In this document: positions 9,084 through 17,326 of the stretch, piece after piece
Layout of the letters: each line of letters begins with the position of its first letter
Numbering within the stretch: position 1 is the stretch's first letter
Assembly: GCF_000423225.1 (NCBI RefSeq)
Contig: NZ_KE383991.1
Location: forward strand, 196,217-260,216
DNA length: 64,000 nucleotides
DNA from: Kaistia adipata DSM 17808
GTDB taxonomy: Bacteria; Pseudomonadota; Alphaproteobacteria; Rhizobiales; Kaistiaceae
Direction of reading: 5' to 3'
The notes under the pieces: model-generated
Database searches by the model: none
Seen by the model: the letters and a program-made list of their open reading frames with translations, nothing else
Told to the model about the DNA's origin: nothing
Position numbers and translations under genes: made by a program

Positions 9084-12000
9084 TCACTGCTGCTGCGGCG
9101 GCTGCGGCGGCTCCTGCGGCTGCAGCTTCTCCATCTGCTGACGCATCCGGTTCGGCAGACGCTGCGACGCGTTGTCCTCCTGCGGCGGCGGCTTCACGCA
9201 CTGGCCACGACGCAGCACCGTGCCCTCCGGACAATCCGGCCCCTTGCGCTGCGGCTTCGACTGACGATCGGGCGGCGGCTGGCGCTGCGGCTGGACGTCG
9301 ACGCAACGGCCGTTGCGCAGGCGCTGGTCCGGGCCGCACTCGATCGGCGCCGGCCGCGCCGGGCGATCCGGCTGCGTCGCCTGGGTCGGCACGCAGCGGC
9401 CACGCCGCAGTACTGTTCCCTCGGCGCAGTCCGGCGCCTTGCGTTGCGGCTCGGCGTCGCGCTTCGGCGGCGGCTGCCGCTGCGGCGGCACGTCGACGCA
9501 GCGGCCGTTGCGCAGGCGCTGGTCCGGACCGCACTGGACAGGCGCCGGCCGGGTCGGACGATCCGGCTGCGTCGCCTCGGTGGGCACGCAGCGGCCGCGC
9601 CGCATCGTCGTGCCATCGGGACAGTCGCGCGGCGGCGGGCGGCGGGCATCGACGCAGACGCCGTCGACCAGGCGCTGGCCGCGACGGCATTGCGTCGGGC
9701 CCGGCCCCGGTTCCACCGGAGGCGTGACGACCGGCGGCGTCACGACGGGGGGTACGACCGGAGGCACGACGGCCGGCACGCAGCGTCCGTCCTGACGGAC
9801 CTCGCCCTCGGCGCAGGGCTGGGCGACGATCGGCCGGCAGCGGCCATTCTCGGCACGCTCCTGCCCGCGCGGGCACGGCCGCGGCGGCACGCAACGGCCC
9901 TTGTCGTCGCGCATCATCGGCGGACGGCATTCACCCTGCGGCGGTACGCAGCGACCGTTGTCGTCACGCACCATCGGCGGACGGCACTCACCCTGCGGCG
10001 GTACGCAGCGGCCGTTGTCGTCACGCACCATCGGCGGGCGGCATTCGCCCTGCGGCGGTACGCAGCGGCCGTTGTCGTCGCGCACCATCGGCGGACGGCA
10101 ACCCTGCGGCGGCACGCAGCGGCCACGGTCGTCGCGCACCATCGGCGGGCGGCAGTCCTGCGGCGGTACGCAGCGGCCATAGCTGTCCAGCGTCATCGGC
10201 GGACGGCAGTCCAGCGGCGGCACGCAACGGCCGCGATGATCGCGCACCATCGGCGGACGGCACCATTGCGACGGCACGCAGCGGCCATCCGGCGTCATGA
10301 ACAGGTCCGGCGGACAGCGCGGCGGCAGGCACTGGCCCCGCACGAAGATCTCGTCGCGCGGGCAGCCGCAATAGCCGTTCGGCAGGCGCACCATGTCGGG
10401 CGGGCAGCGCCAGGGAATGCAGCGGCCGTTGACGAAGGTCTCGTAGCGATCGCAGACGATCGGCGGCGGCAGGCAGGCGCCATTGATGCGGATCATGTCC
10501 GGCGGACAGCCGATGGCGACGCAATAGCCATCGCGGAACCGGGTTCCCGGCGGGCAGCTCGGCGGCAACAGGCAGGTGTCGCCGACCAGATAGGTGCCGA
10601 TGGGGCAGCCGATCACCACCGGCGGCGGAGGCGGCAGCGGCTGCGCGACACGCGGCGGCGGGGGTGGCGGCGGCGGAGGCGGCGCGGCGGCCCGGCGCGG
10701 CGCCACGCAGGGCAACGTCGCAATCGCGCCCATGTGGCCGGCATCGGCACTCTCGCCCGGCTGATCGTCATAGTCGATGAACCAGCTCGCGGTCGGCGGC
10801 GCATTGGCCGGCTGGACGAGCTGGGTGTCATTGCCCTGCAGCCCCTCGACCGGTTCGGTCGACGGCGCATCGCCGAGTAATTGCGAACCGGTGGACCAGA
10901 GCGTCACGGCGCAGGCGTTCGGCAGCATCCGCCCATTACCGTCATAGCCGCGCCCGAGCGCGACGCCGCCATTGGCGTTCTCGTATTCGGGCAACAGGCC
11001 GATCGCGTAGTCCTCGGCGACCGGAATCCAAAGACCCGGCTCGGCATCCGGTCGCGGCTTCGGCTTGAAACGGAGGACGCGGCTGCTGCCGCCCTCCGCG
11101 ACATTGCGGAGATCATAGGCGCCGGTCGGCGGCGCACGCTCGGCCGCGTAGAGCAGGCCGCGATTGTCGAACGCGATGGAGGCGATCTCGATTCCGGGCT
11201 GCAGCGTCTCCACCGCGACCTCGAACCGCGCGTCCGCCGCGAAACCGCCGCCGGGCTGGATGCCGACGGACCAGATCTCCGGCCCGGCGGCGACCGAGTA
11301 GTAGAGCCGGTTGTTGCGCACCGCGAGGGCGAACACCAGCCGCTCCGGGGCGGCGTAGCCCCACGTCGCCGGCTGCTCGGTGTCGAAGGCAGAGCTGGCG
11401 ATATCGACATTGACCGCCGCCCACGGCACTTCCGGCAGGCCGCTCTGCGCCCGACCGGTGATGCCATGGTCGTAGACGCCACGCTCGGTGCCGTCGAGGG
11501 TGAAGCGATGGATCATCCCGGAGGCGCGGTCGGCCACGAAGAGCTGCTGGCTCTCCGGGTCATAGGCCAGGCCGCCGAGCGCGGCGGCGGCGTTGACGCC
11601 CTCGTCGCCGACATCGGCGAACAGCGTGACCTGCCCCGTCGTGCCGTCGACGCGCCAGACCGAGCCCGGACCGCCATCGGGGCCGAACTGGTTGGGAATG
11701 AAGGCGGCGCCGGAAAGCCCATGCAGCAGGCGCTTCATCGGTTCGCCCGAGGCGCCGGGAAGGCCGATCGACAGGCCGTAGGCCGAGGTCGCGGCGAGAT
11801 AGATCGACGGCGCCGGCGCATCGTCAAGCGCGACGCCGAACACCTGGCCGACCTGGCCCGCGGTCACGGTGAAGGGATTGGGCGCGTCGGTCAGCGCCCC
11901 CTGGGCGCCGAGGCGCGAGAGATCGACGACCCTGGCGGCGGGCCCATCCGGAGGAAGGACGAGATAGTCGAGCGGATCGGCGCCGGCCGGCGTCTGGCCC

Positions 12001-12212
12001 TCGGCCGCGCCGGAGAAGCCGGTGACAACAGCGTCCTCGGGACCGACGATCGCCTGCTGCGCCTCGGCGCGCGGCGATCCGAAAGCCGCCGCGCCGAGCA
12101 GCGCCGCGGCGAGCAGCCGCCAGCGCCAGTCTGGCGCTCGCCTAGCCGGCAGCGTTGCCGAACCCTGCCCTGCTCCCGGGGCCTCACCCCGCCCACCCGC
12201 GCGAATCCGCAT
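9084..12212 (-). CDS. Large secreted protein: propeller-like N-terminal part plus 22 cysteine-bracketed repeats
   Basis: The start at 12212 is set by a very strong ribosome binding site (AGGAGGAA, 5 bases upstream), giving 1042 residues. A signal peptide follows (hydrophobic LLAAALLGAAAFGS, cleavage likely after AEAQ). Residues about 60-480 look like a beta-propeller or NHL-type fold, with strands such as GGLAYDPESQQLFVAD and WSVGIQPGGG. After a polyproline stretch near residue 515, 22 units of the form C-x9 to x11-C follow, commonly ending in NGRCVPP, with a central block of seven near-identical units beginning CRPPM. Pro/Gln-rich linkers separate the last units. The family is not one I can name. 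Paired cysteines and export suggest a disulfide-rich surface or matrix protein. The promoter region is shared with the divergent HAD gene. Confidence 0.75.
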   Translation of the reverse strand: MRIRAGGRGEAPGAGQGSATLPARRAPDWRWRLLAAALLGAAAFGSPRAEAQQAIVGPEDAVVTGFSGAAEGQTPAGADPLDYLVLPPDGPAARVVDLSRLGAQGALTDAPNPFTVTAGQVGQVFGVALDDAPAPSIYLAATSAYGLSIGLPGASGEPMKRLLHGLSGAAFIPNQFGPDGGPGSVWRVDGTTGQVTLFADVGDEGVNAAAALGGLAYDPESQQLFVADRASGMIHRFTLDGTERGVYDHGITGRAQSGLPEVPWAAVNVDIASSAFDTEQPATWGYAAPERLVFALAVRNNRLYYSVAAGPEIWSVGIQPGGGFAADARFEVAVETLQPGIEIASIAFDNRGLLYAAERAPPTGAYDLRNVAEGGSSRVLRFKPKPRPDAEPGLWIPVAEDYAIGLLPEYENANGGVALGRGYDGNGRMLPNACAVTLWSTGSQLLGDAPSTEPVEGLQGNDTQLVQPANAPPTASWFIDYDDQPGESADAGHMGAIATLPCVAPRRAAAPPPPPPPPPPRVAQPLPPPPPVVIGCPIGTYLVGDTCLLPPSCPPGTRFRDGYCVAIGCPPDMIRINGACLPPPIVCDRYETFVNGRCIPWRCPPDMVRLPNGYCGCPRDEIFVRGQCLPPRCPPDLFMTPDGRCVPSQWCRPPMVRDHRGRCVPPLDCRPPMTLDSYGRCVPPQDCRPPMVRDDRGRCVPPQGCRPPMVRDDNGRCVPPQGECRPPMVRDDNGRCVPPQGECRPPMVRDDNGRCVPPQGECRPPMMRDDKGRCVPPRPCPRGQERAENGRCRPIVAQPCAEGEVRQDGRCVPAVVPPVVPPVVTPPVVTPPVEPGPGPTQCRRGQRLVDGVCVDARRPPPRDCPDGTTMRRGRCVPTEATQPDRPTRPAPVQCGPDQRLRNGRCVDVPPQRQPPPKRDAEPQRKAPDCAEGTVLRRGRCVPTQATQPDRPARPAPIECGPDQRLRNGRCVDVQPQRQPPPDRQSKPQRKGPDCPEGTVLRRGQCVKPPPQEDNASQRLPNRMRQQMEKLQPQEPPQPPQQQ
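9881..10262. repeat. Tandem in-frame coding repeat, seven units of about 57-60 bp
   Basis: Seven consecutive copies encode CRPPM(V/T/M)-x-D-x-x-GRCVPP units. Three adjacent copies (coding RDDNGRC) are nearly identical in DNA and others differ by a few bases, which points to recent amplification by slippage or unequal recombination. The repeat lies entirely inside the cysteine-rich gene on the minus strand. Confidence 0.85.
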
Positions 12213-12373
12213 CTCGTTCCTCCTGGAACTTCTTCCCGTGCGAGAGTCGCGGCAAGGCGAAACCAGAAGAGCCGCAATCCTGAACACGAAGCGAGCTGTT
12301 CTTCCTCGCCGAAACCTAGCGCAGCGCAAATGTTCCGGCCAGCATGATCAATCCGTCGACATACGAAATTGTC

Positions 12374-12417
12374 AGTGATCGCCATCACAACGTCATGAAG
12401 TTGCTGAAGCTCATGAC
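12374..12417. promoter_or_regulatory. Two dyads in the divergent promoter: CRP/FNR-type site and a second inverted repeat
   Basis: AGTGA-TCGCCA-TCACA at 12374-12389 matches the CRP half-site spacing (TGTGA-N6-TCACA) at nine of ten positions. Just downstream, GTCATGA (12392-12398) and TCATGAC (12411-12417) form a perfect 7-bp inverted repeat with a 12-base spacer. Both lie between the cysteine-rich protein gene and the HAD gene, so either could be the target. Binding is inferred. Confidence 0.45.
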
Positions 12418-15770: not shown

Positions 15771-15880
15771 CGCGCCGGATTGCACGTTTTTTTGGTCATC
15801 CGACATCGTTTTGCCGAAACTCTTGGGTTATGGTTTCGGCCCGAAAAGGCCCGGCGCCGGGCTCCTTGATCGAGGCTGAC

Positions 15881-17326
15881 ATGATCCGCGGTTTTCTTGC
15901 CCTGCCGGCTGCGCTGGCGCTTCTCTGCGCATCGAGCGCCGCCGTGCTCGCCGACGATGTGATGCTGGTGATCGATGCTTCGGCATCCATGGCCGGCAAG
16001 CTCGGCCGCGACCGCAAGATCGACCTGGTCGCGGAAAGCATCGAGGCGGCGGTCACCGACTTCCCGACCGAGGCCCGCATCGGCCTTCTGGCCTTCGGCG
16101 CCAAGAGCAAGACGAGCTGCACCGACGCCGCCGTGGTGACGAAGCCGCAGCGGAACGGCAACGAGGCGGTCACCACCGCGGCCGCCAAGCTGACGCCGCG
16201 CGGCAAGGCGCCGCTCGCCGTCGCCGTCGAGCGCGCCGCCAATGCGATCAACTATCGCAGCGAGCGCGCCACGGTCATCGTCTTCGTCGACAAGGTCGAG
16301 GCCTGCGACGCCAATCCCTGCGTGCTGGCGGAATCGCTCGCGACCCGCGCCAAGGACCTGACGGTCGAGGTGATCGGCCTCGGTCTCGACGAAAAGGAGA
16401 TCGAGCAGGTCGCCTGCCTCGCCGACAAGACCGGCGGCAAGTTCATCAACGCCAAGGACGGCACCGACGTCGCCGGCGGCCTCGCCGCGGCGCTCGCCTC
16501 CGCCAAGGCGCCGCCGCCCAACCTGCCCTCGGCCAGCCTCGACGCGCCGGAGAAGGTCATGCAGTCGGCCGTGTTCGAGATCGGCTATGACGGCCCGAAG
16601 CTGAAGGGCGACCGCCTGCAGGTCGTCTGGCCGGGATTGCCACCGGGATCGGAAATCCGCAGCGCGCTCGTCACCAAGGACGGCAAGAAGCGCAAGCTGC
16701 GGGCGCCGGCCGAGGCCGGCGTCTACGAACTGCGCTACTACCACCCCAAGCTCAACGTCGTGCTCGCCGCGCGGCCGATCGAGGTCGACGTCAAGCCGGT
16801 CACCGTCGGCGTGGCCGAGCGGATCGGCGCCGGTGCGCCGCTGACCGTGAACTGGACGGGCCCCGCCGCGGCCAAGGACGAACTGCAGATCGCGCCGCTC
16901 GACGCGGCGCCGGCCATCAAGCTCGCCTCGCTCCCCGTCAACAAGGACGGCCGCGCCCTGACCTTCATCGCGCCGACCACGCCCGGCCGCTACGAGGCCC
17001 GCTATCTCTCGGGCGAAGACGGCGCCATCGCCGCCAAGACGGCCTTCACGGTCGATCCGCCCTCCGCCTCGATCCGCGGCCCCGAGACGGCGAAGGCCGG
17101 CAGCCGCATCGCGGTCGACTGGACCGGCCCCGGCGCGCGCTTCGACGACGTCGTCATCGCCCGCGCCGGCATGGATGCCAGCGACCACCTGACCATGGCG
17201 CGCATCCGGCCCGACCGCTCGACGGTCCATATCGAGGTGCCGCGCGAGGCCGGCCAGTACGAACTGCGCTACATCGCCGGCGACGGCAAGGCGATCTTCG
17301 CCCGCGCGCCGATCCGGGTGCGCTGA
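15881..17326 (+). CDS. Secreted von Willebrand factor A protein with three C-terminal beta repeats
   Basis: The 481-residue product has a signal peptide (FLALPAALALLCASSAAVLA) and then a vWA domain with the metal-binding DASASM motif (MIDAS) at about residue 31 and a second conserved stretch IVFVDKVEACDANPC. Residues about 225-480 hold three related units of about 75-90 residues, each with a W-(T/P)-G-P/L start and a Y-E-(L/A)-R-Y end, a pattern like immunoglobulin-type modules. The start at 15881 has a GAGG site; an in-frame GTG or ATG upstream would add a non-hydrophobic extension. Such proteins bind ligands or assemble complexes in the periplasm. The partner is unknown. Confidence 0.8.
   Translation: MIRGFLALPAALALLCASSAAVLADDVMLVIDASASMAGKLGRDRKIDLVAESIEAAVTDFPTEARIGLLAFGAKSKTSCTDAAVVTKPQRNGNEAVTTAAAKLTPRGKAPLAVAVERAANAINYRSERATVIVFVDKVEACDANPCVLAESLATRAKDLTVEVIGLGLDEKEIEQVACLADKTGGKFINAKDGTDVAGGLAAALASAKAPPPNLPSASLDAPEKVMQSAVFEIGYDGPKLKGDRLQVVWPGLPPGSEIRSALVTKDGKKRKLRAPAEAGVYELRYYHPKLNVVLAARPIEVDVKPVTVGVAERIGAGAPLTVNWTGPAAAKDELQIAPLDAAPAIKLASLPVNKDGRALTFIAPTTPGRYEARYLSGEDGAIAAKTAFTVDPPSASIRGPETAKAGSRIAVDWTGPGARFDDVVIARAGMDASDHLTMARIRPDRSTVHIEVPREAGQYELRYIAGDGKAIFARAPIRVR

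Follow-up and report, generated by a model that had tools for sequence, protein, structure and literature searches.

A putative envelope protein of Kaistia adipata with a propeller-like head and a tail of 22 cysteine-pair units

The stretch of Kaistia adipata DSM 17808 DNA analysed here (64,000 nucleotides, hereafter the window) carries on its minus strand an intact open reading frame of 1042 amino acids at 9084-12212, with its ATG at 12212 and its stop codon at 9084-9086. We propose that the product is an exported modular envelope protein in which an acidic binding head stands on a basic disulfide rod, a reading to which we assign a probability of about one half. Tentatively, and with somewhat less confidence, we propose further that it belongs to a so far undescribed envelope system of Hyphomicrobiales, the order to which the named relatives point, in which an acidic propeller head is combined with an exchangeable stalk (single-disulfide hairpins, DUF11-like modules, peptidoglycan-binding domains), is encoded as one chain or by two adjacent genes and, in several lineages, stands under a dedicated cassette of extracytoplasmic function (ECF) sigma factor, anti-sigma factor and subtilase. 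The Kaistia protein would be the minimal form, a head plus a hairpin rod. The propeller, the disulfide hairpin, DUF11 and the ECF cassette are all known in kind; no family or literature searched contains the head family, the rod of single-disulfide units or the system of fused and split forms, and a description of the protein or of the system was not found in the open-licence literature covered.

The head and the cysteine-unit tail

All 44 cysteines of the tail fall into 22 pairs, each spaced C-x(10-11)-C, whereas 2000 residue shuffles of the tail yielded at most 10 such units (mean 2.7). A first-pass annotation of this DNA had described 22 units of the form C-x(9-11)-C, many of them ending in NGRCVPP. 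The number was exactly right, and so were the spacings of ten and eleven, while a spacing of nine never occurs; the ending exists, though three exact cases, with seven units ending in GRCVPP, hardly make it frequent. A glycine lies two residues ahead of the second cysteine in 21 of the 22 units, and the linkers between pairs range from 1 to 30 residues. Tandem Repeats Finder (TRF) gives units 8-14 a period of 57, with 6.9 copies and 84% matches, and places a 195-base tandem period across 9195-9604. The number of cysteines in the mature protein is even in all seven complete copies checked of the architecture that has cysteine units alone behind the head (the Cys-only type), the window's copy included. 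An AlphaFold2 model of units 1-8 has a predicted local distance difference test score (pLDDT) of 72 and a predicted template modelling score of 0.45; two strands are modelled in each of units 1-7, which would pair and form with the disulfide one hairpin per unit. A second copy of the head or of the units was not found in the window's own genome.

The beginning of the protein reads as a signal peptide by hydropathy, with a hydrophobic stretch at residues 33-47 and a similar N-terminus in relatives, and cleavage would fall near AEA/QQA; outside this signal-like start the highest 19-residue hydropathy mean is 1.59. The net charge of the tail is +24, against -29 for the head. Behind the signal-like start the first-pass annotation had placed a propeller-like domain and a polyproline hinge. 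The hinge is confirmed by proline runs between residues 511 and 531, and for a propeller-like head we find weak but consistent support. A 49-row head profile matched 29 entries of the Protein Data Bank (PDB) at E<=0.05, all of them DFPase entries or engineered chains listed beside them. Among known families, NCBIfam ScyD/ScyE is matched by 4 of 49 diverse heads (best E 6.2e-06) and three of 17 heads reach NHL at E<=0.1, the best with 0.018, which is under the Pfam gathering score. Among the matches listed by Foldseek, 41 of 50 are NHL, LRP/YWTD or SMP-30 propellers, with low TM-scores and from an AlphaFold2 head model (six-row alignment, pLDDT 37) that is too poor for anything beyond a hint of fold class.

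Such matches would also fit a head that is an enzyme of SMP-30/DFPase type, a lactonase or phosphotriesterase, with a tail that merely holds it in the envelope. The best matches of the head profile to solved structures are VEnT1.3 (E 0.00025), listed with DFPase, and a chain named DFPase (E 0.00088), and an SMP-30-like putative lactonase appears at Foldseek rank 47. However, the profile matches are weak, most span about 100 of 459 positions, and the metal ligands are not reliably placed by the alignment. Moreover, most Foldseek matches, from the same low-confidence model, are NHL or LRP/YWTD chains, which are binding propellers. We consider an enzymatic head unlikely.

Joined and separate stalks across the order

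In relatives the same head is joined to three kinds of stalk: cysteine units alone, DUF11-like modules together with cysteine units, or His-rich low-complexity repeats. Some stalks of the second kind also carry, as judged by eye, a peptidoglycan-binding-like domain (L052, L068 and L109). The DUF11-like module, detected with a hidden Markov model (HMM) built here, occurs in none of the 17 Cys-only rows, and the window's protein has no Pfam DUF11 match. In most of L093-L111 the head is followed not by cysteine units but by long tandem repeats rich in His, Lys, Pro or Gln.

Head and stalk may also be encoded apart. Among the matches of the order-wide head search are 27 short-tailed loci, defined by a head match that reaches model position 454 or beyond within an open frame of <=802 amino acids, and in 27 of 27 a second, cysteine-containing frame follows on the same strand, at -246 to +376 bases. 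With DUF11-like modules and good units counted by the HMM and by patterns made in this analysis, 22 of these frames hold nine or more good cysteine units and one (L174) holds three. The remaining four, in L147, L162, L165 and L167, are incomplete, lying at a contig end or close to one, and contain DUF11-like motifs; that of L147 closes about 150 bases short of the contig end and the other three run into theirs. PG_binding_1 was found in both stalk genes scanned with Pfam. Among the evidence for joint action of head and stalk, this pattern, in which the stalk is either fused to the head or its neighbour, is the strongest, and from the existence of fused and split forms one would expect the two to be physical partners. 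The charge contrast is seen again across the head family: among 83 rows, which include 7 duplicates and cut tails, the head is acidic in 81 (median -22) and the tail basic in 63 (median +17).

In a tree of 99 heads (104 rows less identical heads), built by a quick method with no bootstrap, the Cys-only architecture forms one clade with a Shimodaira-Hasegawa-like approximate likelihood ratio test value of 98, and the split or short-tailed state needs at least four changes. His-rich tails lie in a deep sister clade, where 15 of the 20 rows are labelled His-rich or low-complexity. Before identical heads were removed, those whose match began past model position 60 had been left out, L005 and L015 excepted; L025-L052 entered only as refetched longer stretches, and the tree does not contain as such at least L034, L035, L037, L042, L043, L045, L046 and L052, nor the class and phylum matches L113-L125.

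The head is not confined to Kaistia. Within the order 114 of the 397 genomes sampled, from 59 of 142 genera, contain it. More than one sampled genome in four thus has a domain that is without a Pfam match (0 of 49 heads at E<=0.01). A class-wide sample had it in 5 of 385 genomes, the window's own included, and a phylum-wide sample in 12 of 398, of which 11 are from the same order and one is marginal. The annotation had asked whether the architecture recurs in other Hyphomicrobiales: the head does so across the order, while the architecture is one among several with swapped or separately encoded stalks. A six-row profile of the Kaistia tail matched 7 of 199 genomes of the order and is therefore narrow; the spread of the units accordingly rests on pattern counts in the fetched loci. 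A viral or plasmid origin was considered and rejected, as viral contigs held no relative and plasmids gave one 30% match for the head and none for the tail. In PHROGs the tail had one marginal match (E 0.0094) and the head none.

Three exported-looking proteins made up almost only of cysteine units (L130, L131 and L132), all from one genus of another family, have no head in the chain or in the surrounding 18 kb. Elsewhere, in one genome, CsgG and curlin-repeat genes (L154:11360-14410) start about 0.9 kb beyond a propeller gene.

Conservation and regulatory surroundings

Close homologues, at 63-79% in the head, occur in Kaistia granuli, K. defluvii, K. terrae, K. hirudinis and one Hyphomicrobiales metagenome-assembled genome. 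Counting the window's own genome, 10 of the 14 genomes of the genus have the head, as do 17 of 28 in the family. Two of the relatives' loci (L002 and L003) share the gene order vWA, ccrM, reductase-like, rrf2-like, HAD, head gene, mutY, abcF, and L004-L006 keep it as far as their contigs reach, except that L006 has no rrf2- or reductase-like match. A seemingly exported protein at 15830-17326 of the window, assigned by its sequence to the von Willebrand A type, is syntenic with the locus in Kaistia. In six genomes without the head, four of the genus and two of another genus of the family, 17 to 100 bases separate HAD from mutY. With the two genes nearly adjoining, this is a clean empty site, and the head gene is accessory.

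Is the tail, then, little more than the product of replication slippage in an ordinary secreted low-complexity protein of little function? Units 8-14 are a recent tandem array, the unit count runs from 18 to 25 across six complete Kaistia-type copies, and the gene is missing from four members of the genus. Against this, the ratio of nonsynonymous to synonymous substitution rates in six pairs is 0.08-0.22 for the head and 0-0.26 for units 1-7, well under 1, and both are under purifying selection. Units 1-7 also align in order with those of other genera in a 13-copy alignment, and in 23 of the 27 split loci the stalk gene retains three good units or more, the other four being incomplete. Loss of the repeats in close relatives, which the annotation had offered as grounds for dropping its proposal, was looked for, and homologues that possess the gene have retained the repeats, as the six complete copies show. 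We regard slippage as quite improbable.

An ECF sigma gene lies upstream of the head gene, and divergent from it, in 13 of 48 genomes from three families; its distance to the point where the head domain begins is 103-773 bases. Counted among the 48 are genomes in which the head start was located and the stretch extends 900 bp or more upstream, the window and L002-L006 being left out; a 49th (G031, L200) gave no match in the neighbour search. Anti-sigma and subtilase genes follow the sigma gene in 12 of the 13, the thirteenth stretch (G191) ending too soon. The sigma factor was confirmed by Pfam and NCBIfam and the subtilase by Pfam, while the anti-sigma matches were below cut-off. K. adipata has an intact triad at a distance of about 50 kb (L213:4838-7654, G000:C1), preceded by a small Gly/His-rich, signal-bearing open reading frame. 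With the triad adjoining in some genomes and distant in K. adipata, the linkage is lineage-specific; a strict dependence of the head gene on the triad was rejected, 35 of 48 genomes having no triad next door. An anti-sigma orthologue (E<=1e-80) is present in 7 of 14 genomes of the genus, all seven with the head gene, and three genomes with the head gene are without it; shared ancestry may lie behind this co-occurrence. PMC8999054 mentions subtilases near some ECF sigma factors without anti-sigma factors, an arrangement unlike the triad here. In the lineages that have the triad next door, it offers a handle on the timing of production of the head protein.

The triad also bears on whether the tail is an array of TIL-like serine-protease inhibitors that restrains a secreted subtilase, adjacent or elsewhere in the genome. 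Scanned alone, the tail scores 34.5 bits for TIL (PF01826), above the cut-off of 24.5, and the subtilase lies behind the sigma gene in every sigma-linked stretch long enough and about 50 kb off in K. adipata itself. In the whole-protein scan, however, the score drops to 22.4, and the best stretch aligns to profile positions 14-55 of 55 only. A TIL domain has ten cysteines and five disulfides in one unit of about 55 residues, a layout that was not found in the tail, with its 22 separate pairs and their linkers, and the Cys-only architecture does not occur among the 13 sigma-linked loci. In TIL the final local disulfide seals a hairpin laid out C-P-x-G-x-x-R-x-x-x-G-x-C; this layout matches the unit, so each unit may be that hairpin alone. 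For EB (PF01683, cut-off 24.3) the window's copy (10.5) and L019 (20.9) are below the cut-off, and the tails of L017 (78.7 bits) and L020 (46.5 bits) pass it. The repeat unit is thus not wholly unfamiliar, while the whole arrangement, for which the first-pass annotation knew no family, is covered by no Pfam or NCBIfam family. An inhibitor array seems to us about as improbable as slippage. Slightly less probable still is a metal-binding or redox-buffering tail, for which the very high cysteine content and the His-rich or low-complexity rows of the deep sister clade might speak, since the regular C-x(10-11)-C spacing, the glycine before the second cysteine and the even counts resemble structural disulfides and not CxC/CxxC clusters, and the protein seems to be exported to an oxidising space.

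Upstream of the gene lies a CRP-like palindrome (Table 1), also present exactly in L002, L003, L004, L005 and L189 and seen in alignment rows L009, L013 and L014; it was not found in L006, nor between HAD and mutY in the six empty-site genomes. Standing between two divergent genes, it could serve either. A promoter of the EcfG general-stress type (GGAAC-N16-GTT) occurs upstream in the window and is absent in the 13 relatives scanned, and this candidate was dropped.

Table 1. Features of the gene and its upstream region in the window
Feature	Coordinates	Strand	Basis or remark
CRP-like palindrome TGTGA-N6-TCACT	12374..12389	-	Intergenic, upstream of the gene; single match in 64 kb, 0.04 expected
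Shine-Dalgarno-like AGGAGG	12219..12224	-	6 nt before ATG; read from sequence
Putative signal peptide region, residues 1-51, hydrophobic core 33-47	12060..12212	-	Sequence; similar N-terminus in relatives
Acidic propeller-like N-domain, residues 52-505 (454 residues), net charge -29, cysteine pair C434/C502	10698..12059	-	
Proline-rich hinge region, residues 506-535, proline runs 511-531	10608..10697	-	Sequence
Cysteine units 1-7	10278..10607	-	Order and spacing kept between genera (13-copy alignment)
Cysteine units 8-14, near-identical CRPPMVRDxxGRCVPPQ array, copy number variable	9891..10262	-	TRF
Cysteine units 15-22, long P/Q/R-rich linkers in the later ones	9198..9875	-	Sequence, TRF
C-terminal Q/P/R-rich end, residues 1006-1042	9087..9197	-	Sequence

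A proposed head on a rod and its known counterparts

How might such a protein work? Exported by Sec, it would be oxidised in the periplasm, with 22 disulfides closing in the tail and a single one in the head. Each unit would fold into a beta-hairpin stapled by its disulfide, making the tail a basic, extended and probably protease-resistant rod. A disulfide-stapled rod, which the first-pass annotation had suggested alongside a surface fibre, is the most plausible structure; the surface part stays unproven, the whole-protein Pfam and NCBIfam scans having returned no exporter or anchor domain. The basic rod may be fastened to the anionic cell envelope or extend through it and may fix how far off the head stands, and the acidic, propeller-like head, the most widely conserved part, would bind a ligand, protein or glycan. 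The tail would thereby hold the head at or beyond the peptidoglycan or the cell surface, where binding would take place. Head and stalk would work jointly, as one chain or as the products of two adjacent genes, with other stalks in relatives. Because some relatives carry a peptidoglycan-binding domain, a periplasmic, peptidoglycan-associated place appears to fit at least as well as the surface.

Several results weigh against the proposed binding head and rod. In the Kaistia protein itself no export, sorting, autotransporter-barrel or peptidoglycan-binding domain was found (whole-protein Pfam, TIL only; NCBIfam, nothing), and a third stalk gene (L142, NCBIfam scan only) has the DUF11-type repeat alone. 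The head model is of low confidence, as its pLDDT indicates. The tail model had no match among PDB structures at E<=0.001, where the non-significant list holds many elongated cysteine-rich chains, e.g. of the TNF-receptor, the insulin-receptor and LRP, and a PDB search with the tail profile had none at E<=0.1. Tails are not basic in 20 of the 83 rows. In other architectures the cysteine counts of the tail are often odd, so that the rule of complete pairing was checked for the Cys-only type alone. The absence of the head gene from four of the 14 genomes of the genus makes it dispensable, and the copy in G023 (L189:2052-4760) is truncated, having lost its start together with the signal peptide and roughly one quarter of the head at the N-terminal side.

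Each part of the protein has known counterparts. The unit, C-P-P-G-x-x-R-x-x-x-G-x-C-V-P, resembles the C-terminal disulfide hairpin of TIL and EB domains; these are multi-disulfide knots, whereas the Kaistia protein is bacterial and has 22 units with, most probably, one disulfide each. The six-bladed propellers of the NHL, YWTD and SMP-30 groups, DFPase among them, resemble the head weakly, in a fold predicted at low confidence and in profile matches, and differ from it in that the heads find no Pfam match at the threshold given above. Proteins with DUF11-type repeats (PF01345/TIGR01451) share their module with the stalks of relatives, while a propeller head and cysteine units are foreign to the DUF11 family and the Cys-only rows are without the module. 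Proteins of the LDL-receptor type differ in having EGF-like modules where the Kaistia protein has single-disulfide units and no Pfam EGF match, and sequence homology to them is not shown. Their layout is nevertheless analogous, with a propeller beside small disulfide modules, and LRP chains recur among the matches of the head and, weakly, of the tail. If the proposed structure is correct, the single-disulfide hairpin rod would give bacteria a simple counterpart to the cysteine-rich rods found in animal receptors.

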